From: a virus
Direction: 5' to 3' (one strand)
IMG/VR virus record: IMGVR_UViG_3300021437_000012
Coordinates: 24,615-88,614 of that record
DNA: 64,000 nucleotides
In this document: positions 1 through 54,835 of the stretch, piece by piece
Layout of the letters: each line of letters begins with the position of its first letter
Position numbering within the stretch: position 1 is the stretch's first letter
Notes under the pieces: model-generated
The model's input: only the letters and a program-made list of their open reading frames with translations
The model's database searches: none
What the model was told of the DNA's origin: nothing
Program-made: the position numbers and the translations under genes

Positions 1-1
1 G

Positions 2-3539: not shown

Positions 3540-3569
3540 GTCTTCCTCCTGGACTTAGAGCTTGCACGG

Positions 3570-3813: not shown

Positions 3814-3834
3814 GCTGTGGGCTCCTTTCATCGG

Positions 3835-4586: not shown

Positions 4587-4938
4587 CCAACTTCAAGTAA
4601 CTAAGATGGGTTTTAAGAATGCTCGTAGCTACGAAGTTGGTGATCTTCCTTGGCTTGAAGATTTATTCGACTTAGCGAGGAAGCAGACGAACTTCTTACC
4701 TTATGCCCACAATTTTCCGGTCAAGACTTCGTGGAGCTTATCTGAGCTTGGGGCACATAACTTACTAACTAAAGACATAGTTAATGAGGTAGCTAACACA
4801 CTCGCGCGTGAAGAAGAGGACATGATTATCAATGGTGATCGTGGCGGACTCCTTGTGCGTAACTGGAAGATGCCTGAAATCAAATCCAATGGCAGCCTCA
4901 TCGGTAACTATTCCGTAGGATTTAGGAGCAACACATGA
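4576..4938 (+). CDS. Hypothetical protein with a capsid-like segment
   Basis: Encodes 120 residues, overlapping the preceding gene by 11 nt and the epimerase by 4 nt. It lacks a recognisable enzyme motif. Residues ~55-95 (from TSWSLSEL to EEEDMIINGDRGG) line up with the window's own capsid protein (from TSWSYELDEDS to EEDALINGDTTG), sharing TSWS, an internal E/N/L pattern, EED and INGD with only one residue of length difference. This is the P-domain helix and loop of HK97 capsids. Whether it is a capsid fragment, a minor capsid-related protein or a coincidence cannot be settled by eye. Its position inside a sugar cassette is odd. Confidence 0.6.
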   Translation: MLDNQLQVTKMGFKNARSYEVGDLPWLEDLFDLARKQTNFLPYAHNFPVKTSWSLSELGAHNLLTKDIVNEVANTLAREEEDMIINGDRGGLLVRNWKMPEIKSNGSLIGNYSVGFRSNT

Positions 4939-9723: not shown

Positions 9724-9730
9724 GGTTGGT

Positions 9731-10968: not shown

Positions 10969-11630
10969 AAATAGCTTTGCTTACGTCTTATTTTGGTGTG
11001 TGTCCCTACGAATTTTTGTTTATGGGGGCCGCTACAGAATACTGCACTCGACACAGCTACAATTTAATAAGTATACGCGGGCAGTATGATGTTGATCAGA
11101 ATTTTAATTTTGGTATACCGTTTAAGACAAGCTACGGCGGCGAACCTTGGATATGGTGGTATAAACAATCGTTAATTTCTACGTATTTGCCGCTATACGA
11201 TTACGTTCTATGGATTGATATGGATTGCTTGCTGCTTAATATGAGTCTATCAATTCAGACTCTTATAGAAGAATTCGGAGATAACGATTTGCTTGTAGCA
11301 GACCATCGTGGTATTCCTGATACGGGCCTTTTATTGTTTCGCAATTCAGTGGCCACGCGAGAATGGGTTAGATATTGGATTGAGTACGGCTACACTAAAT
11401 TTGCCACCGCAGCGTGTGTTCCGCATAACAATCATGCTGCTTTTGAGTCTATGTATGCTACTGGCGCACTACCTGCAAATTCTAAAGTCGTAGTGTCGCC
11501 ACAATTTGGTGTTGGGCATGGATTTATGGATGGTCAACTAAGTACAACATTAGCTATGCATGTTTATGGAACGCCAATAGAGGAGAAAGTACAGATTATG
11601 GCTGCTTTCCAGAATCGAATACGCCGATGA
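10965..11630 (+). CDS. Galactosyltransferase GMA12/MNN10-like (GT34-like)
   Basis: Encodes 221 residues from ATG 10965 (ATGA overlap). LLTSYFG at the N-terminus, WIWWYKQSLI, YDYVLWIDMDCLLLN with the DxD site, IPDTGLLLFRNSVATREWV and FGVGHGF match the layout of GMA12/MNN10-type transferases. The donor is probably UDP-galactose or a related sugar (family knowledge); the acceptor is unknown. Confidence 0.75.
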   Translation: MKIALLTSYFGVCPYEFLFMGAATEYCTRHSYNLISIRGQYDVDQNFNFGIPFKTSYGGEPWIWWYKQSLISTYLPLYDYVLWIDMDCLLLNMSLSIQTLIEEFGDNDLLVADHRGIPDTGLLLFRNSVATREWVRYWIEYGYTKFATAACVPHNNHAAFESMYATGALPANSKVVVSPQFGVGHGFMDGQLSTTLAMHVYGTPIEEKVQIMAAFQNRIRR

Positions 11631-12148
11631 TGCGTTCTGGAGTAGAATTTGGGTTTTCCAAGGTTGGGGAAGACGTGTGGGTATCAGATAAGGCAAGCAT
11701 CTATAGCGCATCAAAAATCAGTATTGGGGACCATGTACGTATAGACGATTTTTGTATTCTCAGCGCGGGTGAGGGTGGTATAGCATTAGGGAACTTTATT
11801 CATATTGCTTGTTACTCGTCTTTAATTGGTCATGCTTTGATCCAGTTGCACGACTACGCAAACATTGCCGCGCGCACGTCTATTTTAAGTTCGTCCGATG
11901 ATTTTTCAGGACGCCACTTAATAGGCCCGACAGTCGAAGAAAAGTATCGTAAAGTTACTCATAGAGAAGTAACTATCGGAGCATATTCTGTTATTGGTGC
12001 GGGGTGTGTGGTTTTACCAGGGTCACATATCGGTGCAAATGTTGCTGTTGGAGCTATGAGTTTGGTACGTGGGTACTTAGAAAATGATAGTATTTATGTA
12101 GGTGTGCCAATAAAAAGGATCAAAGGCCGTGAGCGAAGGTGTCTATAA
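11627..12148 (+). CDS. Hexapeptide-repeat (LbetaH) acyltransferase
   Basis: Encodes 173 residues with repeated hexapeptides over most of the length: ISIGDHVRIDDF, IALGNFIHIA, VTIGAYSVIGAGCVVLPG, SHIGANVAVGAMSLV, ending in IYVGVPIKRIKGRE. This is the left-handed beta-helix of sugar O/N-acetyltransferases. It probably acetylates an amino or deoxy sugar; the following DegT-like gene makes an amino-sugar route possible (inference). Confidence 0.85.
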   Translation: MMRSGVEFGFSKVGEDVWVSDKASIYSASKISIGDHVRIDDFCILSAGEGGIALGNFIHIACYSSLIGHALIQLHDYANIAARTSILSSSDDFSGRHLIGPTVEEKYRKVTHREVTIGAYSVIGAGCVVLPGSHIGANVAVGAMSLVRGYLENDSIYVGVPIKRIKGRERRCL

Positions 12149-12755
12149 AATTACTGAAATGTTCGAGCAATCTCTGTGTGAGTATACAGGGGCGCCGTAT
12201 GCTGTTACCTTTGATTCTTGTAGTAGTGCGTTATTTACAGCCTTATCATACCTAAAGTTAAATGGGGAGTTTATTCGCATCCCATCGCATACGTACATGA
12301 GTGTTCCTTGTGCAGTAAAACAAGCTGGGGGACGGGTTCAATTCGTAGAAAGTAGCCCTATTTTAGTTGGAGCGTATAGGTTATTGCCCACTAACATCAT
12401 AGATAGTGCTCTACGGTTTACGGCAGACATGTACGAATTTGGAACAGAAACGTGTTTGTCATTTACAGGCCCATTCAAGCATCTTAAACTTAGTAAGGCG
12501 GGTGCCATTTTAACGGACAGTCCGTGTAAAGCTGAATGGTATCGTAAATTTCGGTTTAACGGGCGTAACGAATGTTCGTATCATACTGATAACTTTACAA
12601 TGTTGGGATGGAATTTCTACTTGTTACCTGAAATTGCTGCGCGTGGTGTTTTGCTTATGCGACAATTCTATAATCTTGATGGTACAAAAAAACACATGCA
12701 GGATATTGCACTGCCGTATCCTGACCTTAGCAAATTCGAGGTATACACAACATGA
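12129..12755 (+). CDS. DegT/DnrJ-type aminotransferase-like protein, short
   Basis: GTG start at 12129, 208 residues; full-length DegT enzymes have about 370. FEQSLCEYTGAPYAVTFDSC and IRIPSHTYMSVPCAVKQAGG match the cofactor-domain start, and SFTGPFKHLKLSKAGAILTD resembles the PLP-lysine strand (a Lys followed by L..s.aG..l.td). The small C-terminal domain seems missing. It could be a minimal PLP sugar aminotransferase or a degenerate remnant. It overlaps the acyltransferase by 20 nt. Confidence 0.65.
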   Translation: MSEGVYKITEMFEQSLCEYTGAPYAVTFDSCSSALFTALSYLKLNGEFIRIPSHTYMSVPCAVKQAGGRVQFVESSPILVGAYRLLPTNIIDSALRFTADMYEFGTETCLSFTGPFKHLKLSKAGAILTDSPCKAEWYRKFRFNGRNECSYHTDNFTMLGWNFYLLPEIAARGVLLMRQFYNLDGTKKHMQDIALPYPDLSKFEVYTT

Positions 12756-13543
12756 TCACCTTCGCAGTCACAGCATACAACGAATCTCTCCGCGGACGCA
12801 CTCCGTTTCAGTGGATTCGGGAGTGTATTACGCCAGCATTATCGCATAACTATGTTAGCGAGATTTTAGTGTACGACGACGGCTCTGACGATTACCCACA
12901 GTTATACCATACACTGAAAAATTACCCTAAAATTAATATGCACTTCGGAGAACAGAATCTCGGCGTTTTCGGAGCTAAACTAGAATCCGTGTTTCGCACG
13001 GAAAATGAATGGGTGATGATGGCAGATTCTGACAACGTGTTTGACTCTGCATATCTTGATCGATTGGAACGTATGGATAGACTAAGTGATCGTACATTTG
13101 TCTGTCCTAGCTTTGGACTTCCGATGTTAGACTATAGGCACTGCGTAGGTATGTGGTCTATGGATAACATAGGTCGATTGTCACGTATGAAAGCGTTTGA
13201 CTGCGTTGTGAATACAGGCAATCAATTTGTGAATCGTGAAACTTTCATGACGCTATTCGCACCCTACCGTGGACCTCGTTTCGATCTGAAGTTACCTGAT
13301 TACCTAAACGTAGGTGATCGTTCCAATATTCGCTGGCGTAAGATCTACGACGCATGTGATAGCTTGATTATCAATTCCATCGCGTTAAAAGCTGATGTTT
13401 CACTGTGGGTCGCACCTGAGTTAACCTATACTCATGGCTCACTAATGCCCGAGCACAAAAACATCATGCCGTCTTCGTGGGAACAGGCACCGCCTGAAAA
13501 AGAACAGTTATCCAAGATTCTCATTCAGGAGTTACTTAGGTGA
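12752..13543 (+). CDS. Glycosyltransferase family 2-like protein
   Basis: Encodes 263 residues. ITFAVTAYNESLRGRTPFQW and EILVYDDGSDDYPQL are the GT2 N-terminal strands; NLGVFGAKLES and WVMMADSDNVFD give the GT-A DxD-type motif. The C-terminal half includes VNTGNQFVNRETF. It is probably a sugar transferase using a nucleotide-sugar; donor and acceptor are unknown. 4-nt overlaps join it to both neighbours. Confidence 0.85.
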   Translation: MITFAVTAYNESLRGRTPFQWIRECITPALSHNYVSEILVYDDGSDDYPQLYHTLKNYPKINMHFGEQNLGVFGAKLESVFRTENEWVMMADSDNVFDSAYLDRLERMDRLSDRTFVCPSFGLPMLDYRHCVGMWSMDNIGRLSRMKAFDCVVNTGNQFVNRETFMTLFAPYRGPRFDLKLPDYLNVGDRSNIRWRKIYDACDSLIINSIALKADVSLWVAPELTYTHGSLMPEHKNIMPSSWEQAPPEKEQLSKILIQELLR

Positions 13544-14436
13544 GCGTCGTACAGATGACCAACTTCGGTCAAATGGGGCGATGGGGTAATCAGATATTTC
13601 AGTACGCTTTCTTGAATTTATATGCTGAAAGGTACGGTGCAACTGTTGAAATTCCAGCGTGGGCTGGTGATGCTATTTATGGGGTGCCTCGGCAGTCACC
13701 TACAGAAAAACTCCCGCTTTACTATAATCGCAAAGGTGAACGGCATTACGAATATCCGCCGATAGGCAATGAAGTTGTAGATCACGATTATTGTGGATAT
13801 GGGCAGTTCCATACGTCATGGTACGCACTACATAAGGACAAATTTCGCAGCTACTTCCAACCAAATCAATCAATTGTGCGCCGGCTTGCTCCTGCATTGA
13901 GCAGACTACAGCGGCATAATACGACTGTGGGATTACACATTAGGCGGGGAGATTATGGCCGTTCGATTTTCTACATAACTCTTATTGCGTGGTACTTGCA
14001 GCTTCTTTCACATATCTGGCCATTGTTGAACGATCCTATTTTATTTATTGCAACGGAAGACTTGAGTTTAACCACGGAGTTCAACGCTTATCTCCCGGTT
14101 ACAACGCAATCATTGGGCGTTGATCTTAACAGTGCACCTTTGATGCACTACAATTATTTACCTCATGACCTACAGACTCACGAGCTTGTGCAGATGGATT
14201 TCTTCCCCGACTTTTACTTTTTGTCACACTGCGATATTGTCATTGCGCCAAATTCTACATTCAGTTTTGCTGCGGCGATGATGAATCCACACCTTCAGAA
14301 GTTTTACCGATCTGAGTTAGAAACTCAGCGTTTTGTGGAGTTAGATGTATGGAATTCACGTCCATTGACCCATGTTAATGTCAATGAATTTCCCGAAGTG
14401 CCCGGCGTTCGTCTCGACTCTAATCCGTGGTGGTAG
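13540..14436 (+). CDS. Alpha-1,2-fucosyltransferase-like protein (GT11)
   Basis: Encodes 298 residues, GTG start at 13540. GQMGRWGNQIFQYAFLNLYA is the GT11 N-terminal block and VGLHIRRGDYGR the HxRRGDY donor-binding motif; HCDIVIAPNSTFSFAAAMM is the conserved C-terminal NStFS..AA block. The family uses GDP-L-fucose. Because GDP-L-galactose differs from it only at C6 and this operon encodes a GDP-mannose 3,5-epimerase, L-galactose is a possible donor sugar (inference). It ends just before promoter P2. Confidence 0.85.
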   Translation: MSVVQMTNFGQMGRWGNQIFQYAFLNLYAERYGATVEIPAWAGDAIYGVPRQSPTEKLPLYYNRKGERHYEYPPIGNEVVDHDYCGYGQFHTSWYALHKDKFRSYFQPNQSIVRRLAPALSRLQRHNTTVGLHIRRGDYGRSIFYITLIAWYLQLLSHIWPLLNDPILFIATEDLSLTTEFNAYLPVTTQSLGVDLNSAPLMHYNYLPHDLQTHELVQMDFFPDFYFLSHCDIVIAPNSTFSFAAAMMNPHLQKFYRSELETQRFVELDVWNSRPLTHVNVNEFPEVPGVRLDSNPWW

Positions 14437-14439
14437 GGC

Positions 14440-14468
14440 TTGACATGTTTATAGACTCCTGGTATAGT
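14440..14468 (+). promoter_or_regulatory. Sigma70-type promoter P2, extended -10
   Basis: TTGACA at 14440-14445 and TATAGT at 14463-14468 have a 17-nt spacer, and TGG before the -10 makes it an extended -10. It starts two bases after the preceding stop codon. The predicted start site is near 14475, about four bases before ATG 14479, so the mRNA would be essentially leaderless. Confidence 0.88.
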
Positions 14469-14478
14469 TTCGCCCAAC

Positions 14479-15189
14479 ATGAGCTTGGCACCTACCGTTC
14501 TCGTGTGCGTCTCAGGGTTTAGGGATACGGCGCTACTGCGCGGGTGTGTGCGGTCGGCCAACGCACTAGGATGGCCTGTGCTGTACGCTGATGGCGCTTA
14601 TAGGACGTTTCTTGACCGTCCCGACTCTGACCCTTGGGTGACGTCATCAGATGAGCTACGCGAGGCTACAGAAGGGTCTGATGTAGCCTTTATGCCAGCA
14701 TTGCAAAAACAACCGTGGCCCGATGAGCCAACAAAGTTGAATGCAATTTTAAATCATGTTTCAGCGCACTACGATATTTTTTATCGTCCAACTTGGTTAG
14801 TATTTCTTGACTGTGATGAACGGCTAGAGTGGGTAAATCCGCGTGAAGAAGTTACCGGCTTTTTATACGCGCTACTTTCTATGCCTGAAATTAAGTGGGC
14901 TACCATTAAAACGTATCAGCCAAAATCTGGTGTCATTTCGTCCGTTGCCCGGTTTTTTAAGTTCGATGAGCATATTCGTGAGAATTTAGCGTTTAGTTCT
15001 ATTCCGCCGTTTCCGTTGTTATGGGATGGGGCAGCGTTGTGTGCGCCATGTGAATCATCCTACACCGGACTTCGGACAAATTGCGTTAATATACCATATA
15101 GTCTTCTAAGAATTCGGCATGAGTGTGGAAGACAGACTGCGGAACGTAAAGCTCAACTAGCGAGGTATCGTGCAATTATACGTGTTTGA
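14479..15189 (+). CDS. Glycosyltransferase-like protein B, paralogue of 3864-4586
   Basis: Encodes 236 residues. APTVLVCVSGFRDTALLRGC, RSANALGWPVLYADGAYRTF, WLVFLDCDERLEW (DxD-like) and LLRIRHE match protein A at the other end of the cassette. There is no Shine-Dalgarno sequence in the bases before ATG 14479; the P2 -10 ends ten bases upstream, so translation is predicted from a leaderless mRNA. The two paralogues head the two promoter-driven parts of the cassette. The acceptor is unknown. Confidence 0.8.
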   Translation: MSLAPTVLVCVSGFRDTALLRGCVRSANALGWPVLYADGAYRTFLDRPDSDPWVTSSDELREATEGSDVAFMPALQKQPWPDEPTKLNAILNHVSAHYDIFYRPTWLVFLDCDERLEWVNPREEVTGFLYALLSMPEIKWATIKTYQPKSGVISSVARFFKFDEHIRENLAFSSIPPFPLLWDGAALCAPCESSYTGLRTNCVNIPYSLLRIRHECGRQTAERKAQLARYRAIIRV

Positions 15190-15748
15190 TGATGTACTTC
15201 AGATTTACCGCAAATGGCGGCGAGATGAGCTTCAAGGAATTTATCTACAGTATGCAAGTAATGTAGATGCTTTATACAACTTAGTTTGGTGCAAAGGGTA
15301 TGGGTATTCACCTGTTGTAGATGCAGTACAACGAGATACGCCTGTGGGTGACGCATTAACGGAGAATTCAGTGCTGACATTTGCGGTCGCTTATGGTGTA
15401 GTGGACTCATTATGGCTAAATGGAACTACTTGCCAATTAGTTACTAAGGCGCCCTATGTATATAAAGTTCCACTTAATTTGGAACAACAAGCTGGGCTAC
15501 CTTCGTTAAAATCAGGATGGTATGCTTTATTGGATTGGAGTTATTTCGCACCAAAGTGGGAAACAGACGATTCTATTGATAAGTCTATGGATCTTTTCTT
15601 TTCGTTCAACCATGGTGTACCAGAAACAATCTACTTACTAACTCCATGGCATCGTTGCAGTTCAAATTTAGCAAAATTCGCACAGTTCACTTCTCGTTTA
15701 AAAACAATGTATGGCGTAGACACCATCAACTGTCGAGGGATAAAATAA
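15170..15748 (+). CDS. Hypothetical protein
   Basis: Encodes 192 residues, GTG start at 15170 after GAGGTATC, overlapping the previous gene by 20 nt. It is rich in aromatic residues (Trp, Tyr); VFDDVLQIYRKWRRDELQG opens it and NHGVPETIYLLTPWHRCSS lies near the end. I recognise no domain. Its operon position suggests a role in the cassette. Confidence 0.65.
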   Translation: MQLYVFDDVLQIYRKWRRDELQGIYLQYASNVDALYNLVWCKGYGYSPVVDAVQRDTPVGDALTENSVLTFAVAYGVVDSLWLNGTTCQLVTKAPYVYKVPLNLEQQAGLPSLKSGWYALLDWSYFAPKWETDDSIDKSMDLFFSFNHGVPETIYLLTPWHRCSSNLAKFAQFTSRLKTMYGVDTINCRGIK

Positions 15749-15751
15749 ATC

Positions 15752-16447
15752 ATGTTACCGTACACACCCACTATTACTCAAATCCTTGATGTAATTAATA
15801 AGCCATTTCTTGTTAAATGGAAAGTGGAAAACGCGCAGGCTATAACTGCAAAGTTAGCTGCTGAAATGTATAGTGACGCATCATTTACAGATCATATAAA
15901 GTTTCATCAAGCCTTAACTAATAAAGTCACTGCTATTACACAACAATCGCAAACAGACATTTCATCTCGCGGCACGTCTATTCACGATTTAATTAGCTAC
16001 GCATTACTAACTAAAATGAAAAAAACTGATGGGTTAGTAAAACCAGAACCTACGGATTCAACTAGAATTGCTTGGGAAAATTGGAGAACTTGGGCTAACA
16101 AGGTAAAACCAAAACCTCTTTATATTGAGCATCGTATTCAAAGCGACGTACATAAGTATAGAGGTAAGTTGGACGCCATAATACAGCTTGGTAAGATAGT
16201 AACGGTCGTTGATTGGAAGACTGGTAAAGCAGTGTATCCTGAAGCTATTATGCAAGTGGCCGCTTATGCACGTGCAGCAGCAGAGATGAAATTAGTTAAA
16301 CCTGGGTATGAATGTGCTGTAATTCGTATTTCTAAAGATGACCCTCGTGATGAGGTTGAAGTGGTTAAGGTAGATAAGGCGGAGGAAGTAGCAGCATTCG
16401 GTGCTTTTTTGTCTGCACGGCAACTGTGGGGCTACTTAAATGCCTGA
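15752..16447 (+). CDS. PD-(D/E)XK nuclease-like protein (RecB/Cas4-type)
   Basis: Encodes 231 residues. SSRGTSIHDLI provides the early His motif; KYRGKLDAIIQLGKIVTVVDWKTGKAVYP gives the D...DWKTGK catalytic core, and EAIMQVAAYARA the Q..aY motif IV of RecB-family nucleases (PDDEXK_1). Roughly 220 residues suits small phage exonucleases. It probably processes DNA ends; a nuclease inside a sugar cassette is unexpected. It overlaps the next gene by 8 nt. Confidence 0.8.
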   Translation: MLPYTPTITQILDVINKPFLVKWKVENAQAITAKLAAEMYSDASFTDHIKFHQALTNKVTAITQQSQTDISSRGTSIHDLISYALLTKMKKTDGLVKPEPTDSTRIAWENWRTWANKVKPKPLYIEHRIQSDVHKYRGKLDAIIQLGKIVTVVDWKTGKAVYPEAIMQVAAYARAAAEMKLVKPGYECAVIRISKDDPRDEVEVVKVDKAEEVAAFGAFLSARQLWGYLNA

Positions 16448-17423
16448 ATTAAAGTGTGTAGTTCTTGCAAATAAGCAGTATGAAACCTATATGTCCAACG
16501 AAGGTTGGCAGTTACAGGAGGGATTGCAGTTAGCAGGGTGGAAACTACGTGGTTATGGGTATGAAGATAATTCGGTTGACGTGCAAAGCATTATAGATCA
16601 AGACCATCCTGATGTAGTGATGATTCAAGATGTACGGGATTGGGCTAATGGGGATTCTCCCGTTAAATTCTGTAATACACAAATCTTAAGAGAACACAGC
16701 AGTATCTTCAAAGTGATGGTACTAAAAGACCCTTGGTATTGTTCAGATTTTCAATCTATGTACATGGGATTGATGGGTGTTAAGGCGTGTGTGGTTTATT
16801 ACCAGCAAGATACAGTACGCCAACATACTACATGGCTACCACAAAATATGTCACTTATTCGTACATACCATAGCGTTGATCCAACACAAGCGGCTAATGC
16901 GTATAATGTCAATTTACGTAGAGAAGATGGTTTAGTTTCTGGGACTTTGGAGCCGTATGAAACCTATCCCATGCGTAACTGGTTTGTGCGTAATTGTGCT
17001 GAATTAGATTTACGTGTACTACCTCATCCGCAGTATTACGTACAAGCCAAATCAGCAACTAACGCCTATCTACGTATTCTTAGTCAATTTAAAGTACATG
17101 TAGCTACTGCTAGTATTTACCAATGTGCGTTACGTAAGATAATCGAGTCAATTGCAACTGGGTGCATTCCAATCACAAATTTATCTAGTAATGATAAATT
17201 GCCTATGATTGATTCTGCTATTTGGCGCGCCCGATTTGATCAAGATGTGTATAGAATGCACAATGTACTACAATTGGCTAAAGAAAACTGGCGTAAAGAC
17301 CGTGCACTTCACTACGCACGTCTTGCATGGGAACACTATTCTTACATAAATCAAGGTAGACTTTTGTCCGAAGAAATTAAGAGGCAATACTATGCGCATT
17401 TTCGGCATCGTAACGTGTGTTGA
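16440..17423 (+). CDS. Putative glycosyltransferase, CgeB/GT1-like
   Basis: Encodes 327 residues. The N-terminus (KCVVLANKQYETYM...WKLRGYGYED) resembles a Rossmann-type half; the C-terminal ALRKIIESIATGCIPITNLS is the 'ki.E.ma.G..pv' acceptor-site motif of GT-B transferases. There is no strong family signature between them, so this call rests on the C-terminal motif and context. It overlaps the next gene by 32 nt. Confidence 0.55.
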   Translation: MPELKCVVLANKQYETYMSNEGWQLQEGLQLAGWKLRGYGYEDNSVDVQSIIDQDHPDVVMIQDVRDWANGDSPVKFCNTQILREHSSIFKVMVLKDPWYCSDFQSMYMGLMGVKACVVYYQQDTVRQHTTWLPQNMSLIRTYHSVDPTQAANAYNVNLRREDGLVSGTLEPYETYPMRNWFVRNCAELDLRVLPHPQYYVQAKSATNAYLRILSQFKVHVATASIYQCALRKIIESIATGCIPITNLSSNDKLPMIDSAIWRARFDQDVYRMHNVLQLAKENWRKDRALHYARLAWEHYSYINQGRLLSEEIKRQYYAHFRHRNVC

Positions 17424-18072
17424 CTATTCTGGTTTTCTTGAAAAGAGTTTATCTATATGGCAAGCAGGACTAGATAAGTTGGTCGTGGTAACTTCGCAAG
17501 AAGATAACCGCACTCAGCAACTTTTAGATTCTCCTGAATATTCGCAAGTTATCTTGCATCCTACTAATGCGTTTTGGCAAGACGGTGCATTATTCAACAA
17601 AGCTGCGGCTCTAGAAGAAGCTTATATAACACTGCGAACTTCAGCGGATGAATGGGTTTTATTTTTTGATGCTGATGTTATTCCACCTACTGGGTGGCGG
17701 CAGGATATTGAAGAAATTGGACAACTTGAATTGGGTTGCATATATGGTGCTATTCGTCGTACTGAAGACTATAGGCTGATACGTGATACGGAACTAGCTG
17801 GATTTTTTCAGCTATGGCATCGTCGTGATCCTGTTGTTCAGACTTTGCCATTATTAGGTTCATGGCATAATGCTTCTGGTTACGATTCTGCATTTGCCAC
17901 TCGGTGGCCTAAAACTAACCAACGTTGTGCACCAATTAGCTTAATACACCAAGGAAACGTCGGTAGAAATTGGTGCGGGGTAGGCCATGATTCTGACATG
18001 GGCGAAGTTTTTGCAAATCGACGACACAAAGGCGGATTTCTTCACGAGCGACTGGACAATATAGGGCGTTAG
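17392..18072 (+). CDS. Glycosyltransferase-like protein (GT2-like)
   Basis: Encodes 226 residues. FGIVTCVDYSGFLEKSLSIW and DKLVVVTSQEDN form an N-terminal GT-A strand pair; EWVLFFDADVIPPTGW holds the DxD motif, and HQGNVGRNW lies near the C-terminus. It is the last gene of the cassette, ending about 55 nt before a strong terminator. Donor and acceptor are unknown. Confidence 0.78.
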   Translation: MRIFGIVTCVDYSGFLEKSLSIWQAGLDKLVVVTSQEDNRTQQLLDSPEYSQVILHPTNAFWQDGALFNKAAALEEAYITLRTSADEWVLFFDADVIPPTGWRQDIEEIGQLELGCIYGAIRRTEDYRLIRDTELAGFFQLWHRRDPVVQTLPLLGSWHNASGYDSAFATRWPKTNQRCAPISLIHQGNVGRNWCGVGHDSDMGEVFANRRHKGGFLHERLDNIGR

Positions 18073-18086
18073 TGGTACACTTAAAT

Positions 18087-18105
18087 TGCCTAGATCCTCT
18101 AGGCA
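18087..18105 (+). other. Short hairpin after the cassette
   Basis: TGCCTAGA (18087-18094) pairs with TCTAGGCA (18098-18105) around a 3-nt loop. There is no T tract, so it is not a classic terminator by itself; it may assist the one 22 nt downstream or mark an RNA processing site. Confidence 0.5.
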
Positions 18106-18126
18106 CGTCAGTTTCTCCTCTGTATA

Positions 18127-18180
18127 GGTGCATCGTCGTACCCATTAACTCGGACCCACTATGACGATGCACCGTTTTTT
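18127..18180 (+). terminator. Strong intrinsic terminator closing the cassette
   Basis: A perfect 11-bp stem (GGTGCATCGTC at 18127-18137 with GACGATGCACC at 18163-18173) has a 25-nt loop and is followed by GTTTTTT. It ends the glycosylation operon. Only six bases separate the T tract from the next start codon. Confidence 0.85.
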
Positions 18181-18186
18181 CAATAA

Positions 18187-18813
18187 ATGAACTACGATAC
18201 AGCACTCATAACTAGCGAAGACTTCAAATCGTACTATGGTATATTGTCTTCATCTACAGGATCAGATAGCTTAATAGCTCTATTAATAGAAAAGTGCTCT
18301 TCGCTTATAAGTGAATTTTGTGAACGAAAATTTCAGTCTGCTAGCTATACTGAATATTTCGATGGTAGAGGTAAATCTGATTTATTTGTAACGCACTACC
18401 CAATTGCAAGCCCGTTGTCTGCGACTACTGGTGGTGGTTTGTGGGATGACCCTCAGCGTACTTATTCTGATTCGTATAAGTTGACAGAGGATGTAGGCCA
18501 GGGCACTGGTGATTTTGTTGTATACCCTTCGGAAGAAGGTCAAGGCAAAATATCACGTATCAACGGTGTTTTTTACGTAGGGCGTCGAAATATAAAAATA
18601 ACGTACACTGGTGGGTATACGCAAATACCTAGACAAATTCAACTTGCTTGTTTTCGTATGGTTAGTAATGAGTACCAAAAAACACAAAAAGATACCTTTG
18701 GGCAAAGTTCTCAATCAATCCACCGAGATTCAACTACTTATATAGCACCTAAAGATGTACCTCTTGATATTCGGGAAATGTTAGAACGCTGGAGAAAGTG
18801 GTCGTTTAGATGA
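18187..18813 (+). CDS. Head-tail connector protein (gp6-like)
   Basis: Encodes 208 residues. DTALITSEDFKSYYGI...LIEKCSSLISEFCERKF matches the N-terminal helices of HK97 gp6-type adaptors; SYTEYFDGRGKSDLFVTHYPI and IKITYTGGYTQIPRQIQLAC continue the family pattern, and QSIHRDSTTYI precedes the end. It would bind the portal and form the connector ring. No Shine-Dalgarno is visible before ATG 18187, which lies directly after a terminator. It overlaps the next gene by 4 nt. Confidence 0.85.
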   Translation: MNYDTALITSEDFKSYYGILSSSTGSDSLIALLIEKCSSLISEFCERKFQSASYTEYFDGRGKSDLFVTHYPIASPLSATTGGGLWDDPQRTYSDSYKLTEDVGQGTGDFVVYPSEEGQGKISRINGVFYVGRRNIKITYTGGYTQIPRQIQLACFRMVSNEYQKTQKDTFGQSSQSIHRDSTTYIAPKDVPLDIREMLERWRKWSFR

Positions 18814-19418
18814 ACTTTGGCGTTAATGTACAGATTGATAGTACAGTAGCAGAAATGCTTAATAAAATAAGTGGTGGGCTTCCTGAAGCGGCACGTAAAA
18901 TTGCGCTTGGTGTGCTTTCAACCGTCGCAATGGAAGTGTCAGATAACGCGCAGAGCGGAAGACCGTATTTAAACCGAGGGTATGGGGTGTTATCCGATGC
19001 TTGGAAACTTTCGGCAAGTGGTCAGCATAACATAAATTCTGAACTACGGGTTGAATCTACTACGGATGGTGTAGAAGTATCTTTCGCTCCTGACTTACCA
19101 TACACTTGGATTCATGATACTGGCGGAGAAATTACGCCTAAGAATTCACAGTACCTTGCTATTCCTTTAGGTAACTTTGGTGGGTTAGGCCCTCGTGCTT
19201 TTGGTGATTTGTTTGTAATACGTACAAAAAATAACAATTTACTTCTTGCTAGACGTACACGAAATAAAGCATTAGAGTTTCTTTTTGTGTTAAAGAAACG
19301 TGTTGAAATTCCTGCACGTCACTATATTTCAGATGCTATTGCAGTAGCTTCTGAGACCGCTACTTATGTAGGTGTTGGGGTGTTAAACGACTTAATTCGC
19401 GAGGCAACCAGTGGCTAG
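18810..19418 (+). CDS. HK97 gp10-like neck / tail-completion protein
   Basis: Encodes 202 residues. A helical N-terminus (LPEAARKIALGVLSTVAMEV) is followed by beta-rich sequence with LPYTWIHDTGGEITPKNSQY and LAIPL, the 'Y..ihe.Gg.I.pk' motif of gp10-like tail-completion proteins. It sits in the expected slot between connector and tail terminator. It overlaps both neighbours by 4-8 nt. Confidence 0.82.
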   Translation: MNFGVNVQIDSTVAEMLNKISGGLPEAARKIALGVLSTVAMEVSDNAQSGRPYLNRGYGVLSDAWKLSASGQHNINSELRVESTTDGVEVSFAPDLPYTWIHDTGGEITPKNSQYLAIPLGNFGGLGPRAFGDLFVIRTKNNNLLLARRTRNKALEFLFVLKKRVEIPARHYISDAIAVASETATYVGVGVLNDLIREATSG

Positions 19419-19884
19419 TTCTGTTAAAGAAGTTGGGCTTGCTGCGATTAGAACGGATTTATTGGGCATTAACGCTATAACACCATACAATTTTAAGGTA
19501 GAGATTGTGTCGCGAGATGTGGCACCGCCTGAACGGTTAAAAGTAATTTCAGGGGATGTCGCAGCGATAGCTATGCTAGACGGTATTGAAACTAAACACC
19601 GACAAGTTTCTAATCGAGTTATTGTATGGAGAGTACCAGTTACTTTACTTTGTTACATCAAGCGTAATCCAGATGAGTCTGGGTCTGCTACTCTGAATAA
19701 ATTACGTTCCGATGTGTTTATTGCACTGTATTCTTCGAGTAAGTGGAATCATAGCGGTAACGTGATACTAACTGATCCTTTATCATTCGACCCACTTGCT
19801 GTTGCTGGTGTTGACCTTCTTTGTCTTATTGTGGATTTTTATTTTTTGTGCTCTCATACGTGGGATGATCCGACTACAACATGA
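19411..19884 (+). CDS. Putative tail terminator protein
   Basis: Encodes 157 residues, GTG start. The call rests on position (after gp10-like, before tail tube), on length and on a mixed alpha/beta pattern with LNKLRSDVFIALYSS and LTDPLSFDPLAVAG...LIVDFYFLCSH. Tail terminators cap the tail tube and join it to the head. No specific motif is decisive. Confidence 0.6.
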   Translation: MASSVKEVGLAAIRTDLLGINAITPYNFKVEIVSRDVAPPERLKVISGDVAAIAMLDGIETKHRQVSNRVIVWRVPVTLLCYIKRNPDESGSATLNKLRSDVFIALYSSSKWNHSGNVILTDPLSFDPLAVAGVDLLCLIVDFYFLCSHTWDDPTTT

Positions 19885-20111
19885 GTAGACGATATGGGCG
19901 TATTGGAGAAGCTGTATCATTGATTCTTTCTGATATGACAGGAAAAGACGCTTCTTGCTTCATTGAGTCTGATGATAACGGACCCTATGTTGACTTAGAC
20001 ACCAGACGTGTTAAACTGTTACTAGCGGATGTAACTCTAGTTACACTCGAAGAATCTGAAGCGCCACCAACATCCGGCGTCTGTAACTCAGGAGACAAAA
20101 AGTGTCCGTAA
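19881..20111 (+). CDS. Small hypothetical protein of the tail operon
   Basis: Encodes 76 residues between tail terminator and tail tube genes, overlapping them by 4 and 10 nt. GRIGEAVSLILSDMTGKDAS opens it and DTRRVKLLLADVTLVTLEES follows; two Cys lie near the C-terminus. No family is recognised. Confidence 0.65.
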   Translation: MSRRYGRIGEAVSLILSDMTGKDASCFIESDDNGPYVDLDTRRVKLLLADVTLVTLEESEAPPTSGVCNSGDKKCP

Positions 20112-42788: not shown

Positions 42789-43634
42789 ATGTCAGTACAA
42801 CGCGCTCTATTAATCGGTATCAATGATTATGCAAACCCACGTGCCGATCTACAAGGGTGCGTACCTGACGTAAGCAATGTAGACAAATTCCTTAGATTCT
42901 CTGTAAGTAAGAAGTACGAAACTTATATTATCACTGATCAAAAAGCTACACATGATGCGTCTATAGCGGCCTATCGAAAATTACGGGACATATCGCAACC
43001 TGGGGATACTCTAGGGCTGATGTTCTCTGGACACGGGACTCAATTACCAGACCAAGATGGTGACGAACAAGACGGGTTGGACGAAGCTCTGTGTATGGCT
43101 GATGTATTCACAAATCCGACGGGGTTTGCAGCAGGTTGTGTAAGTGATGATGAACTACGACACGAAATTGCACTAGTTCCACGGGGCGTACGTCTTTGGT
43201 TTTGGCTTGATTCTTGTCACTCTGGCACAGGTACAAGAGAACTTTTTGCACTGAATTCTTATCGTGCAGCTAAATTCATTGCAGCGCCAGACTGCATAAT
43301 GCAAAACTACTATAATCGTAAACGTGGGTTGGCGTCGATTTTTTCTAAGATCGTTAAGTGGCGGCATAAGACCAGTAAATCTGTAATCGAAGCAGATATC
43401 GTAGAATTACTTCTCGCCGGGTGTCGCGCCGATCAAACGTCTTCTGATGCTTTCATCGACGGTGAATATTGTGGGGCGTTCACCCATTTCATATTAAAAG
43501 CTATCACAGAAAATCCCGCACTTTCGATAGGCACGATTGTCAATAAATGCGCGGCGTCCTTAGCAAAGGCAGGGTTCTCTCAAATTCCTCAAGTTGAGGG
43601 AACAGCAGCAAACTTAGCACAGGTTTATTTTTGA
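42789..43634 (+). CDS. Metacaspase (caspase-like peptidase C14)
   Basis: Encodes 281 residues. RALLIGINDYANPRADLQGC is the typical metacaspase opening; LGLMFSGHGTQLPDQDGDE carries catalytic His82, and RLWFWLDSCHSGTGTR catalytic Cys143. DVSNVDKFLRF and ADIVELLLAGCRADQTS fit the p20-p10 arrangement, so both catalytic residues are present. Metacaspases cleave after Arg/Lys (family knowledge). It lies between a holin-like gene and the endolysin with a 4-nt overlap, so expression with lysis genes is likely. Its target is unknown: host lysis, host suicide control or protein processing are possible. Confidence 0.88.
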   Translation: MSVQRALLIGINDYANPRADLQGCVPDVSNVDKFLRFSVSKKYETYIITDQKATHDASIAAYRKLRDISQPGDTLGLMFSGHGTQLPDQDGDEQDGLDEALCMADVFTNPTGFAAGCVSDDELRHEIALVPRGVRLWFWLDSCHSGTGTRELFALNSYRAAKFIAAPDCIMQNYYNRKRGLASIFSKIVKWRHKTSKSVIEADIVELLLAGCRADQTSSDAFIDGEYCGAFTHFILKAITENPALSIGTIVNKCAASLAKAGFSQIPQVEGTAANLAQVYF

Positions 43635-49497: not shown

Positions 49498-50013
49498 TCA
49501 CTTCCCTTCTCTTATGATTTTAGTTAGAATTTTCACTGCTCGTTGATCTGCTAACGTTAGCTTAGTCAGCAGATAAGTAATCTCAGCAATAAACACCTTT
49601 GCAAACCCAGGATCATACGTAATAATTGAAGGTGCGTTATCGATCAGATCACATACTTTAAGAGTGTGCAATTCAGGATCTTCAATTGCTCCAATCTTAT
49701 CGGCGTATCGTCTTTTGCGTGTTGCGCGGTTTCCATTCTTATCCGTATCAGTCATACCCTCAACTAAGCGCGCAACATACGGAGTAAACTGAATCTCAAT
49801 TTCTTGTGCCGTCTTACCGCAATCCTCGATAACATCGTGCAAAAGGGCGGCAGCAACACCAGACTCAGTTTGTTGTAAATTAATCATCATGCCAGCAACC
49901 GCAATTGGGTGCTGAATATACGAACCCATATCGTATTTACGTTGTTGTTGTCCTCTATGAGCATTTTCAGCGTACTTTAGTGCACGAAATACTAAATCCG
50001 ATTTAATTTTCAT
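49498..50013 (-). CDS. HD-domain alarmone hydrolase-like protein (SpoT/Mesh1-type)
   Basis: Encodes 171 residues. ALKYAENAHRGQQQRKYD, YIQHPIAVAGM, AAALLHDVIEDCGKTAQEIE and KVCDLIDNAPSI follow the hydrolase half of RelA/SpoT enzymes: His of QHP, HD at 59-60, and Asp of CDLIDN form the metal site. There is no synthetase domain. Predicted to remove the 3' pyrophosphate of (p)ppGpp in the host, relieving stringent control during infection (inference). tRNA-Leu lies 13 nt upstream. Confidence 0.82.
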   Translation of the reverse strand: MKIKSDLVFRALKYAENAHRGQQQRKYDMGSYIQHPIAVAGMMINLQQTESGVAAALLHDVIEDCGKTAQEIEIQFTPYVARLVEGMTDTDKNGNRATRKRRYADKIGAIEDPELHTLKVCDLIDNAPSIITYDPGFAKVFIAEITYLLTKLTLADQRAVKILTKIIREGK

Positions 50014-50118: not shown

Positions 50119-50352
50119 TTACTTAGAATAAGGTACGAAGTTGAAATACACACGCGGAGAATGTGTGAATTCCAGCGAACCCTTCACACCGTCACTCTTC
50201 CGCACAACAACCACAAAAGGTGCTGCGAACCCTATAAAATCGAACTCTGCTGTTGCTTGGTCAGTAGTCCATTTTTGTTGCGCAGATTCCATGTCACGCT
50301 GCGGTTTTCCGGTTTCGATCATGTTCTTACGGATCTTTTCAGTTATGTCCAT
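50119..50352 (-). CDS. Small hypothetical protein with pseudoknot leader
   Basis: Encodes 77 residues; GGGGAG lies before the ATG at 50352. DITEKIRKNMIETGKPQRDM then EFDFIGFAAPFVVVVRKSDG. No family recognised. Its leader carries copy A of the repeated structured element. Confidence 0.6.
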   Translation of the reverse strand: MDITEKIRKNMIETGKPQRDMESAQQKWTTDQATAEFDFIGFAAPFVVVVRKSDGVKGSLEFTHSPRVYFNFVPYSK

Positions 50353-50356: not shown

Positions 50357-50438
50357 TTCTCCCCTTTGTAGCCTGTCTCTTCAGTGCGAGTAGGCCATTT
50401 CTCGCAGACGGCCGCTAAACTACAGCGGCCCGTTTCGA
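50357..50438 (-). promoter_or_regulatory. Structured leader element, copy A
   Basis: Stem 1: TGCGAG (50385-50390) with CTCGCA (50401-50406). Pseudoknot stem: GCCT (50371-50374) with AGGC (50392-50395). Upper hairpin: GGCCGCT (50410-50416) with AGCGGCC (50424-50430). The sequence differs from copies B-D but the pairings are kept, as expected for a selected RNA. It ends at the ribosome binding site. Confidence 0.75.
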
Positions 50439-50441
50439 CTG

Positions 50442-51167
50442 TTACGATGTTCCGATTCTCTTAGGTCCCATGCCTAAACTCCGCGATGCACCACCTAATC
50501 TGATTTTATCCGCAGCTTCCGCACCAGCACTGAATGCTGCCGAATGGCGCAATGCGCGCCCTTTCATAGACCGCAAACCTAACTTACTGGCAAGATCATC
50601 GACTAACTGAGATTGTTTGTCGATTCTCATCAAAGCGCCTTGAGACGCTTGCAAGTCGTTCAACGCTTGTGCGCGAACTTCACGCAACCGATCTTTCAAC
50701 TTTATCGCGGCGCCCACCCGGAAGCTATTCTTCCACGATTTGGCTTGTCCCGGGCCTGAGAACACACCTTGCATGATGTAGTTTTCTTCGGCAAGGCGAT
50801 TAACAGCGTTTATGAGGTATTCATGAGTGTACTTTATCGCGTCCAACTTTGACTGTACTGCGATAACGCGGTAAAGCGTGGTCCCATAGCCTACCGACAT
50901 ATAAGCGCGGCAGCCGAAACTTACGGCGACGCCATCAAGAATATGCGCTTGCCAACCGATTCTGTTCTTCGACTGATTTAGCACGAAGTCATCCGGCGTC
51001 TCAAGTGTAACGTCACCAGACTCGATTGCGATATCCGCTTCGGATACCTCATGTTCGGCCATCAATGACGCTGCTTTCGCCGCCGCTCTTGCTGCCTCAT
51101 GCTCGTTAGGCGAAGATGAAAGGCGAAGAAGTTTGCGGATTTTGTCTAGTATTTTTTCTTTTTCCAT
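50442..51167 (-). CDS. DUF2786-containing protein
   Basis: Encodes 241 residues. ILDKIRKLLRLSSSPNEHEA followed by AKAASLMAEHEVSEADI is the DUF2786 N-terminal domain; the C-terminal part (HEYLINAVNRLAEENYIMQG; SWKNSFRVGAAIKLKDRL) is the usual partner of this domain in phages. Biochemical role unknown. Copy B of the structured leader precedes it. Confidence 0.8.
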   Translation of the reverse strand: MEKEKILDKIRKLLRLSSSPNEHEAARAAAKAASLMAEHEVSEADIAIESGDVTLETPDDFVLNQSKNRIGWQAHILDGVAVSFGCRAYMSVGYGTTLYRVIAVQSKLDAIKYTHEYLINAVNRLAEENYIMQGVFSGPGQAKSWKNSFRVGAAIKLKDRLREVRAQALNDLQASQGALMRIDKQSQLVDDLASKLGLRSMKGRALRHSAAFSAGAEAADKIRLGGASRSLGMGPKRIGTS

Positions 51168-51171
51168 TTAT

Positions 51172-51253
51172 TGTTTCTCCCTTGTAGCCTATCTCATCAG
51201 CGCAAGTGGGCTAATTCTTGCGGACGCGATACCGTTAGGGTACCGCGTTTCGA
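51172..51253 (-). promoter_or_regulatory. Structured leader element, copy B
   Basis: Stem 1: CGCAAG (51201-51206) with CTTGCG (51217-51222). Pseudoknot stem: TAGCC (51185-51189) with GGCTA (51209-51213). Upper hairpin: ACGCGATACC (51224-51233) with GGTACCGCGT (51239-51248), one A-C mismatch. It fills the whole gap between helicase stop and DUF2786 start. Confidence 0.78.
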
Positions 51254-51254
51254 T

Positions 51255-52685
51255 TCACTTGACGAGCGATAACTCTTCTATCGCCCGTGTGATTCCGACG
51301 TAATGAATATTTTGTTCTTCGAGCGTCTTTCTTCCTCCGGGGTACAAAGTCCCCTCAAGTAAGAACACCCGGCGAGCCTCAAGCCCCTTAGCCTTGTGGA
51401 CCGTCGAGCATGTTACTTGATTTTCACGTGTGCCGTCGTCTGAGAAAAGACTGTCAAGTACACGTTGAAGTTCTGTCAGAGTGACAATCCCTTCAGCGAG
51501 CACTCTCAGCGTTTCGGCGCGATCTGCGATTTCTACTGCCTTACTATCTTTCTTCGCATTCCGAGCACGGCCGACTTCAATCAATTCCCACTCATGTAAC
51601 TTCTCTAGGAATTGACTTACATCGCCGCCGTTACCAAGTTTGCGAACAAGTGCTGTAAGGCCCTTTCCGATGTCTCGCCCTTCAACCGTTGCGCGCGTTC
51701 CGTTTCGCAAGAGTGATAAACACGTCTTAACGAGCGGAGCGTTTACACGACTAAGAACGAAGTCACCGGGCGCAGCAGTTACGGCTAACTTGTCATAGGC
51801 AAGATCGGTTATCAATCCATCCGGCGCAGTGTCGGCGCATTGATAATCGGGCACGAGTGTCTGAGCAAGTTCCACGATTTTCTTAGGGCAGCGATACGTT
51901 ACTGTTAGAGGAAGCTCAACAGCATTGTATTCCGCCTTAAGTCTATCAAGTGACTCTGAATCCGCGCCGCGGAAGCGATAAATACCTTGACGGTCGTCAC
52001 CCACCACTGCGATCCTACCGTTAGGCGCCAACACTTGTTGAGCAAGTAGGATTTGCGCGGGATTCATATCTTGACACTCATCTATGACAACCAACGGGTA
52101 TTTACCTGCCACCCATTCGTTAACAAGTGGCAAGTAACACATATCCTGAAATGAGACAACCTGAGCGCGCCGCCGCGCAAGTCTCATTGCATTGAATGCG
52201 TACTCTGCGATCTGCTCGACAGTGTACTTATTCGTTGCAGGCACACAATCAAAATCGTCCGCGATTTCAATTAGTGCTTCAGAACTGTCAGCCAAGGGCA
52301 TAATCTGCTTACCCAAGTCTGACAACTTAGATACTAACGAAATGATCGTGTCAGGTGTCCCCGCCGGACAACTTTCTTCAGCTAGTACCCAAGTCCGCTG
52401 ATCGTCCACGCCTACCCCGCGCCAATTCGACCGTATGATCGAATAACCTACGGAGTGAAGCGTTTTTGCCTCCGCACGCGGATTCTTCAGCTTACGCTGC
52501 AATTCTGTTGCGATTTTCTTATTGAATGCCGCAAGTAGAATTGATGATTCTGGTGCGAATTCAAGCCCATGCAAGATAGTCGTCGTCTTGCCAGTTCCCG
52601 CGCGTGCTCGGACAACCAAATTGCCTCCGCCTACACGGAACCAATCGAAGATCGCTTCTTGCTGTGGACTCCATTTTATTGTCAT
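51255..52685 (-). CDS. UvrD/Rep-like SF1 DNA helicase
   Basis: Encodes 476 residues, shorter than UvrD. WSPQQEAIFDWF (Q motif), ARAGTGKTTT (Walker A, Lys33), PLVVIDECQDMNPAQ (Walker B), VVGDDRQGIYRFRGAD (motif III), YRCP (motif IV), STVHKAKGLEARRVFLLEG (motif V) and HYVGITRAIEEL (motif VI). All SF1A motifs are intact; the accessory 1B/2B domains are reduced. Probably unwinds DNA during phage replication or repair. Copy C of the leader precedes it. Confidence 0.92.
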   Translation of the reverse strand: MTIKWSPQQEAIFDWFRVGGGNLVVRARAGTGKTTTILHGLEFAPESSILLAAFNKKIATELQRKLKNPRAEAKTLHSVGYSIIRSNWRGVGVDDQRTWVLAEESCPAGTPDTIISLVSKLSDLGKQIMPLADSSEALIEIADDFDCVPATNKYTVEQIAEYAFNAMRLARRRAQVVSFQDMCYLPLVNEWVAGKYPLVVIDECQDMNPAQILLAQQVLAPNGRIAVVGDDRQGIYRFRGADSESLDRLKAEYNAVELPLTVTYRCPKKIVELAQTLVPDYQCADTAPDGLITDLAYDKLAVTAAPGDFVLSRVNAPLVKTCLSLLRNGTRATVEGRDIGKGLTALVRKLGNGGDVSQFLEKLHEWELIEVGRARNAKKDSKAVEIADRAETLRVLAEGIVTLTELQRVLDSLFSDDGTRENQVTCSTVHKAKGLEARRVFLLEGTLYPGGRKTLEEQNIHYVGITRAIEELSLVK

Positions 52686-52689
52686 TTTT

Positions 52690-52769
52690 GTTTCTCCCTG
52701 TAGCCTGTCTCTTCAGCGCAAGTGGGCTAAGTCTTGCGGACGCGATACCCTAACGGTATCGCGTTTCGA
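52690..52769 (-). promoter_or_regulatory. Structured leader element, copy C
   Basis: Stem 1: CGCAAG (52717-52722) with CTTGCG (52733-52738). Pseudoknot stem: TAGCC (52701-52705) with GGCTA (52725-52729). Upper hairpin: ACGCGATACC (52740-52749) with GGTATCGCGT (52755-52764), perfect 10 bp. The ribosome binding site GGGAG follows the pseudoknot directly. Confidence 0.8.
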
Positions 52770-52773
52770 CTTA

Positions 52774-53031
52774 TTACGAGAAAAAACACACATCGCAAGC
52801 GCAGTGGATTTTATCACCACCCGCCGCGATTGCACGTTGATATAAGCACTCGGCATGCCCATCATGGGGCGGCGCGAATTGTGTGCTGCCATCACGCAAA
52901 AGTTGCATGTAACTTGTGCATTCATCGCACCCGATGTGCTGTACGAAGTCCACGCCGTTGATCTTGTGTTTGTGGATTGTATCCTTTTTTACTTTCGGCT
53001 TTGGTATCTTTTCAACTTCCGCCGTTGTCAT
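52774..53031 (-). CDS. Small Cys/His-rich protein with pseudoknot leader
   Basis: Encodes 85 residues. A Lys-rich start (EKIPKPKVKKDTIHKHKING) precedes FVQHIGCDECTSYMQLLRDG and DKIHCACDVCFF, two CxxC-type pairs that could bind zinc. Function unknown. It lies between two copies of the structured element. Confidence 0.65.
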   Translation of the reverse strand: MTTAEVEKIPKPKVKKDTIHKHKINGVDFVQHIGCDECTSYMQLLRDGSTQFAPPHDGHAECLYQRAIAAGGDKIHCACDVCFFS

Positions 53032-53035
53032 TTTT

Positions 53036-53115
53036 GTTTCTCCCTGTAGCCTGTCTCTTCAGCGCAAGTGGGCTAGTTCTTGCGGACGCGATACCCTAAG
53101 AGTATCGCGTTTCGA
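53036..53115 (-). promoter_or_regulatory. Structured leader element, copy D
   Basis: Stem 1: CGCAAG (53063-53068) with CTTGCG (53079-53084). Pseudoknot stem: TAGCC (53047-53051) with GGCTA (53071-53075). Upper hairpin arms 53086-53094 and 53102-53110 (9 bp). Nearly identical to copy C except in hairpin loops. Confidence 0.8.
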
Positions 53116-53148
53116 CTTGCGGGGTTTAGTCACTTCACCCCGCTTAAG

Positions 53149-53532
53149 TTACTTCTCTGACTTCTTGACTTTCTTCGCCTTGGGCTCCGCACCCTCAGCC
53201 TTCGGCTCGCGCTTCTTGCGCGGACGCGGCGAATGGTAGAACAGCACCCAATCCGATTTCCCCGTGGATTCACCCGTCTCGGGGTCGAAGATTTCGCCGA
53301 AGTTCACCATCAGCGACTTCTCTTCGGTATCGAAGAGGGTTTTGTTCGCGCGAAGGATCGGGAGCAGCGCCTTGCGGGCTTCCTCCTGGAATACGTTGAT
53401 CACGCCGCGCTTGGCTTCCATCTCGGCGTTGAATGCCTGCTTTTCCTGCTTACGCAAGATGTTTTCGATGAACTTCTCATCGAAGCCGGCCGCCTTGAGG
53501 GTTTCCAGAACCTTGTTCTTGTCGATAGCCAT
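53149..53532 (-). CDS. Small protein with basic C-terminal tail
   Basis: Encodes 127 residues; ATG 53532 has GGGGAG seven bases upstream, while an in-frame start at 53568 lies before it. An N-terminal helix (NKVLETLKAAGFDEKFIENI) and a middle helix (FQEEARKALLPILRANKTLF) end in a Lys-rich tail with PRPRKKREPKAEGAEPKAKK. The layout resembles the paralogues at 46697 and 48519 but is more divergent. Possibly DNA-binding. More GC-rich than neighbours. Confidence 0.65.
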   Translation of the reverse strand: MAIDKNKVLETLKAAGFDEKFIENILRKQEKQAFNAEMEAKRGVINVFQEEARKALLPILRANKTLFDTEEKSLMVNFGEIFDPETGESTGKSDWVLFYHSPRPRKKREPKAEGAEPKAKKVKKSEK

Positions 53533-54309: not shown

Positions 54310-54338
54310 AGTATAATACGAGTCCTATACAATGTCAA
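54310..54338 (-). promoter_or_regulatory. Sigma70 promoter facing the gene-free region
   Basis: On the - strand TTGACA (54333-54338), 17-nt spacer, TATACT (54310-54315). It points away from the primase operon into about 0.75 kb without genes, so its first product would be a non-coding RNA or a very long leader. Confidence 0.85.
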
Positions 54339-54444: not shown

Positions 54445-54455
54445 ACTTCCCAAGG

Positions 54456-54663
54456 TACGGTCCTAGGACTCACCAGGTTAGGTCTAGTCGCGTTCCCTGG
54501 TACGGTCCTAGGACTCACCAGGTTAGGTCTAGTCGCGTTCCCTGGTACGGTCCTAGGACTCACCAGGTTAGGTCTAGTCGCGTTCCCTGGTACGGTCCTA
54601 GGGACTCACCAGGTTAGGTCTAGTCGCGTTCCCTGGTACGGTCCTAGGGACTCACCAGGTAAG
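54456..54663. repeat. 45-46-bp tandem repeats, five copies
   Basis: Units begin TACGGTCCTAGG at 54456, 54501, 54546, 54591 and 54637; the last is cut to 27 bp. Each contains the palindrome GTCCTAGGAC (the last two with an extra G) and an ACCAGG...CCTGGT inverted repeat. There are no unique spacers, so it is not CRISPR. Near the primase gene and palindromes it is a candidate replication origin or partition/repressor array. Confidence 0.88.
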
Positions 54664-54664
54664 G

Positions 54665-54835
54665 TTATGTACGATCTAACTCTTCTCGCGCTGCCACTAT
54701 GCAACTTTCAATGTGTACTAATTTACGTCGAAGTTCTTTATCATCTAACATAGACACAACTGGCCTGCGTAGTATATAATCAAAATCTTCTTTTGCGTCC
54801 TCTACGTATCGTTGGATCTTATCTGGGTTTTTCAT
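54665..54835 (-). CDS. Small helical protein
   Basis: A 56-residue frame starting in a TAATG overlap with the upstream gene. Sequence is helical and charged: KNPDKIQRYVEDAKEDFDYI, then SMLDDKELRRKLVHIESCIV. Coupling and codon use support a real gene. It ends where the tandem repeats begin. Function unknown. Confidence 0.65.
   Translation of the reverse strand: MKNPDKIQRYVEDAKEDFDYILRRPVVSMLDDKELRRKLVHIESCIVAAREELDRT

Follow-up and report, generated by a model that had tools for sequence, protein, structure and literature searches.

A minus-strand gene run with four similar gaps

The window, by which we mean the whole 64,000-nt stretch analysed here, belongs to the 88.6-kb IMG/VR virus record of an uncultured phage. 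Four of its gaps, called copies A to D below, separate consecutive minus-strand genes (Table 1). An initial annotation had correctly named the genes that follow them: the 85-aa ORF after copy D, the UvrD-like helicase after C, the DUF2786 gene after B and the 77-aa ORF after A. Gene order and strand suggest that the five genes of the run are co-transcribed, and a promoter-like site upstream (54338-54310) could be the start of the shared transcript. At the DNA level the window has no close match among annotated phages, a DUF2786 protein search of viral contigs yielded no confirmed relatives, and relatives of the Toprim/primase type were found at a single weak locus.

Table 1. Predicted features of the gene run in minus-strand order. 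R1 and R2 are covariance models described in the text.
Feature	Position	Strand	Support	Remarks
Promoter-like site TTGACA-17-TATACT	54310..54338	-	consensus match 11/12 only	upstream of run
127-aa ORF	53149..53532	-	no family	first gene of run; upstream of ribozyme D
Type II hammerhead ribozyme D	53040..53117	-	R1 72.1 bits, R2 62.7 bits	
Ribozyme D, GAAA	53113-53110	-	sequence	
Ribozyme D, predicted cut	53085/53084	-	sequence	
Ribozyme D, pseudoknot	53075-53071 with 53051-53047	-		UAGCC with GGCUA
85-aa ORF	52774..53031	-	no family	between ribozymes D and C
Type II hammerhead ribozyme C	52694..52771	-	R1 71.5 bits, R2 62.5 bits	predicted cut 52739/52738
UvrD-like DNA helicase	51255..52685	-	Pfam PF00580 E 1.2e-24; phrog_1967 E 5e-91	between ribozymes C and B
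Type II hammerhead ribozyme B	51178..51255	-	R1 69.9 bits, R2 63.2 bits	predicted cut 51223/51222
DUF2786 gene	50442..51167	-	Pfam PF10979 E 1.3e-13; phrog_421 E 3.5e-38	between ribozymes B and A
Type II hammerhead ribozyme A	50362..50440	-	R1 66.3 bits, R2 62.2 bits	predicted cut 50407/50406
77-aa ORF	50119..50352	-	no family	downstream of ribozyme A

The 1.1-kb non-coding gap that holds the promoter-like site also contains four to five tandem 45-nt repeats (54454-54665; GGTACGGTCCTAGGACTCACCAGG...) and a 23-nt inverted repeat at 53591/53697. An HD_4 domain protein, possibly of the ppGpp hydrolase type, adjoins a tRNA-Leu gene in the early region (49498-50013). Elsewhere in the window, a phage ORF with a caspase-like domain (42789-43634; Peptidase_C14, E 3.5e-21) lies directly upstream of a glycosyl hydrolase 108 endolysin, and about 14 kb inside the structural gene region (3849-18072) are rich in sugar-related genes, of which glycosyltransferases (families 25 and 11) and an aminotransferase of the DegT type were confirmed.

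Hammerhead parts and core in the four gaps

The initial annotation had described the gaps as four copies of one RNA leader, in which an upper hairpin is followed by a short stem whose loop pairs with a downstream segment. We found this layout in each of the four places reported, on the minus strand, including the stem (CGCAAG/CTTGCG, or TGCGAG/CTCGCA), the upper hairpin and the loop pairing (UAGCC or UGGCC with GGCUA). The parts were real, but their identity as pieces of a self-cleaving ribozyme had been missed: the upper hairpin corresponds to stem III of a hammerhead, the 6-bp stem to stem I and the loop pairing to the type II pseudoknot, while stem II (GTC with GAC), CUGANGA and GAAA had been overlooked. 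We identify the element as a hammerhead because a short stem II occurs together with the invariant CUGANGA and GAAA.

On the minus strand the core elements follow one order in 4/4 copies, namely GAAA, stem III, UC^ (the caret marking the predicted cut), stem I, CUGANGA and an open stem II. Copy D, for example, reads 5′ to 3′ GTC GAAA CGCGATACTCTTAGGGTATCGCGT C^ CGCAAG AACTAGCCCA CTTGCG CTGAAGA GAC A GGCTA CA GGGAG AAACAAAAATG. The catalytic core (CUGANGA, GAAA and the UH before the cut) is intact in all four copies, and around it stems I and III are closed by loops and stem II is open, again in every copy. Stem I measures 6 bp, stem II 3 bp and stem III 10-11 bp in copies B to D; stem III of copy A carries a one-base bulge. 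The core reads CUGAUGA in copy B and CUGAAGA elsewhere, and in alignment copies C and D are nearly identical through the start codon. The pseudoknot between loop I and the 3′ tail, which is common in type II hammerheads but not obligatory, has five pairs in each copy.

We count against the hammerhead reading that stem II is only 3 bp long, that stem I is absent from the minimum-energy structure when folding is pseudoknot-free and that Rfam misses three of the copies. Such folds were also examined for sequestration of the Shine-Dalgarno sequence: in copies B, C and D some bases of the ribosome binding site pair with loop I, copy A differs, and all of the folds leave out the pseudoknot, so that we base no claim of sequestration on them.

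Model searches and covariation

A motif search of the window returned exactly these four elements, with 0.40 expected from shuffles, and a hammerhead descriptor matched four times in the window versus three times in total in 60 shuffled windows. The Rfam model RF02276 aligned to the full length of copy A at 33.9 bits (E 0.0002 when the 2.9-kb stretch was searched, 0.0044 for the whole window), which does not reach the gathering cut-off of 37, and it did not report copies B, C and D even at E up to 5. At the gathering cut-off, Rfam reported only two tRNAs in the window; among known riboswitch and leader families, E up to 5 gave Hammerhead_II and two chance matches only.

A core-plus-flanks pattern found 95 stretches in viral contigs, nearly all with three stems. 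We built a covariance model, R1, from 34 of these pattern-found sequences, window copies included, and it scores the window copies at 66-72 bits. A second model, R2, comprises 150 matches and no window sequence, though its rows were gathered with R1 and it is not fully independent; it gives each of the four copies 62-63 bits, with E about 1e-17. Under Rfam's own Hammerhead_II model the homologues score as high as 72 bits, and because these relatives pass it, the window copies can be tied to the Rfam family. We did not count the Rfam gathering score, which the homologues pass, as a defining type II feature. Neither the window nor the remainder of the 88.6-kb record yielded another hammerhead in the model searches.

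The initial annotation had made its reading depend on compensatory changes in homologues, and these are present: the 34 homologues carry 168 double-sided changes, compared with 54 in shuffles and 28-44 in slid structures. Changes on both sides occur at 14 of the 21 pairs and in all four helices, pseudoknot included. Over the same 34, 90.8% of cells are paired, the pseudoknot again counted, a figure inflated for stems I-III, which served as the selection criterion, and not for the pseudoknot, which was not so used. The pseudoknot shows double changes at 4/5 pairs in these homologues, and a Watson-Crick pseudoknot of at least 5 bp is present in 112 of 206 matches, compared with 29 on average when tails were exchanged. 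Covariation is also directly visible among the window copies, as had been claimed. Stem I of copy A replaces C-G with U-A and A-U with G-C, and a pair that had escaped the earlier description changes in stem II, which is GAC/GTC in copies A, C and D and a compensating GAT/ATC in B (C-G to U-A).

Placement between stop and start codons

Measured from the stop codon of the preceding gene to model position 1, the ribozymes begin at 31 nt in copy D, 2 nt in C, -1 nt in B and 1 nt in A, the helicase stop codon being flush with ribozyme B. The next start codon follows CUGANGA at 24 nt in copies D and C, 26 nt in B and 25 nt in A, and each start has a ribosome binding site. Of the four, only ribozyme D stands apart from the preceding stop codon; between the stop of the 127-aa gene and this ribozyme lies an extra GCGGGGT...AACCCCGC hairpin (53117-53149).

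We examined placement in 221 matches at 75 loci, using open frames of at least 40 codons that are mechanical calls. A stop codon falls within -4 to +6 nt of the ribozyme in 164 of these matches (74%), compared with 8% of random same-strand positions, and in 176/221 an ORF of 40 aa or longer that has a ribosome binding site begins no more than 70 nt away, compared with 17% at random. The start codon lies a median of 28 nt after CUGANGA in the homologues. For Streptomyces phage Marav, the independent deposited annotation puts most of the ribozymes in similar intergenic gaps.

Arrays in related viruses

Fifty virus records, picked for holding at least one match and so not a census, include 30 with at least two copies and 14 with 5-21. 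At loci with at least three copies, every copy lies on one strand, the coding strand. A 9.5-kb stretch of IMGVR_UViG_3300017605_000570 (10000-19500) holds 23 type II hammerheads above the Rfam cut-off, in an array that extends over 6.5 kb (1033-7521 of that stretch) on one strand with about one per gene. IMGVR_UViG_3300033112_000310 (1-20000) has 21 hammerheads between consecutive genes over 13 kb (874-13939), including ribozymes before an antirestriction-family gene (phrog_7245) and a methyltransferase-like gene. The genes between ribozymes in these relatives are mostly small and of no known function; those that can be named belong to antirestriction and methyltransferase families or, as in the window, are a DUF2786 gene. 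Ribozymes within one genome resemble one another.

Isolated phages carry the element as well. Marav (OQ995441.1, 40813-48862) has an array of about 12 confident copies, and an OCR-like antirestriction gene follows directly after one of these. Pseudomonas phage DMS3 (DQ631426.1), a model phage of the laboratory, has a single intergenic type II hammerhead (1499-1576; 66.2 bits with Rfam), with similar matches in more than 70 other Pseudomonas phage records. No annotation of these hammerheads appears in the stretches of Marav and DMS3 viewed. Helicase relatives at about 50% identity have no such element beside the gene or elsewhere, and for this reason we attribute the ribozymes to the way the genome is laid out, not to the helicase family.

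The wider survey suggests a placement rule, flush with the stop and with the start about 28 nt after the core, together with arrays of 5-21 copies, and this pattern is the most interesting part of the result.

Proposed processing of the shared transcript and competing readings

On sequence grounds, the four gaps are very probably type II hammerheads that would cut the minus-strand transcript in cis and dice a shared message; our confidence is high for their identity and moderate for their function. The predicted cleavage site, 3′ of the C in GCGUC, separates stem III from stem I, and the shared five-gene transcript would be cut at four such points. Each upstream message would keep its stop codon intact and have its 3′ end in the stem III hairpin, while each downstream message would start at the stem I hairpin and retain the pseudoknot just upstream of its ribosome binding site. 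Hammerhead cleavage leaves a 2′,3′-cyclic phosphate on the upstream product and a 5′-hydroxyl on the downstream product. The hairpin may then shield the 3′ end, and RNase E would meet no 5′-monophosphate. The likely purpose would be the conversion of a polycistronic phage transcript into separately stable, separately translated single-gene messages. A processing site had been the second choice of the initial annotation, and this suggestion holds up, with hammerhead core and stems intact in 4/4 copies. We also considered the upper hairpin as a terminator and rejected it; no terminator-like sites were found at the four gaps. The window offers a clean case, in which four consecutive gene junctions are each filled by a predicted ribozyme, one of them before a replication helicase.

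The first choice of that annotation had been a shared translational operator. Phage T4 gp32 represses its own message via a leader pseudoknot, and here a phage protein would bind the pseudoknot by the ribosome binding site and repress several genes. An H-type pseudoknot does lie 15-19 nt before the start codon in the four leaders, and after cleavage it would still sit at the 5′ end of the message and could act there. A pseudoknot in a phage gene leader is, however, a trait that the gene 32 operator shares with type II hammerheads and is not diagnostic. The operator fails on the invariant unpaired letters, which match the catalytic core and would be needless for it: conserved CUGANGA, GAAA and stem II are left unexplained, and the gene 32 operator has no catalytic core. 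The identical element type precedes unrelated genes in many viruses, and in the window several unrelated genes follow it, namely the helicase, DUF2786 and two unknown ORFs, with no ssb-type leader, and none of the flanking genes was recognised as encoding a single-strand binding protein. An operator specific to the helicase is disfavoured because the ribozymes do not stay with the helicase family, whose relatives at about 50% identity lack the element. We regard the operator as highly improbable.

It is also conceivable, if unlikely, that the hammerheads are active and their cleavage regulated, a ribosome at the flush stop or the nearby start blocking folding, so that cutting reports the translation status of the neighbouring genes. 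In most homologues the 5′ strand of stem II abuts or shares bases with the stop codon, and the 3′ strand of the pseudoknot falls inside a typical initiation footprint, yet the tight packing of compact phage genomes would alone give the same positions. Slimmer still is the chance that the gaps matter mainly as DNA, as duplicated leader cassettes that provide recombination joints for small genes, the ribozyme being a passenger or selfish. The near identity of copies C and D through the start codon, the likeness of copies within a genome and the position of arrays among small genes of no known function speak for it; but compensatory changes that preserve helices and core despite divergence need selection on RNA, and array copies all lie on the coding strand. 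We retain cleavage in cis by type II hammerheads as the preferred reading. Its extension, that in some phages nearly every gene of a long early operon is ribozyme-bounded as a general mode of message maturation, each ribozyme lying flush with the preceding stop codon and at a fixed small spacing from the following start codon, possibly ribosome-controlled, is one to which we would give slightly less than even chances. If true, a single transcript would divide itself into messages of one gene each, with both ends capped by RNA structure.

Relation to known systems

Natural type II hammerheads with the pseudoknot, which is needed for fast cleavage, were described by Perreault et al. (2011; PMC3088659). 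In that work, prophage hammerhead clusters flank single genes, clustered phage and prophage hammerheads cleave in vitro and in E. coli, as does a triple cluster around ardA in E. coli, and long phage transcripts were proposed to be processed to single-gene messages (PMC3088659). In the same tests 4/18 consensus hammerheads were inactive (PMC3088659), which we count against our reading of the window. A 2017 review called the hammerhead role in prokaryotes and phages an open question and noted that clusters flank small unknown ORFs (PMC6155905), and a 2023 paper reported enrichment near Mu-like phage genes and near other ribozymes (PMC10085705). In the literature searched, mostly open-access journal articles, neither arrays of about 20 copies nor the flush stop placement turned up. 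The window is a further case of known type II hammerheads, and the scale of the arrays is undescribed in that literature. Two bench-ready phages, the array-bearing Marav and the single-copy DMS3, make the 2011 processing idea directly testable.

The window copies share with type II hammerheads (RF02276; PMC3088659) the permutation, core, loop I/3′-tail pseudoknot and short stem II, as well as the phage context with several copies flanking single genes; they differ in falling under the Rfam cut-off or being missed by it, and are predicted here from sequence. The triple hammerhead at Agrobacterium ardA (PMC3088659) likewise flanks individual genes in tandem, but the genes are others, and arrays in relatives of the window reach about 20 copies. 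Closest in setting is the HHphage of haloviruses HF1/HF2 (PMC3088659), which likewise precedes a DNA helicase gene by a few nucleotides, within a lytic virus's early region, and for which a mapped RNA 5′ end falls within 3 nt of the cut (PMC3088659). That hammerhead is a single core-variant copy in an archaeal virus, whereas the window holds four copies with the consensus core.
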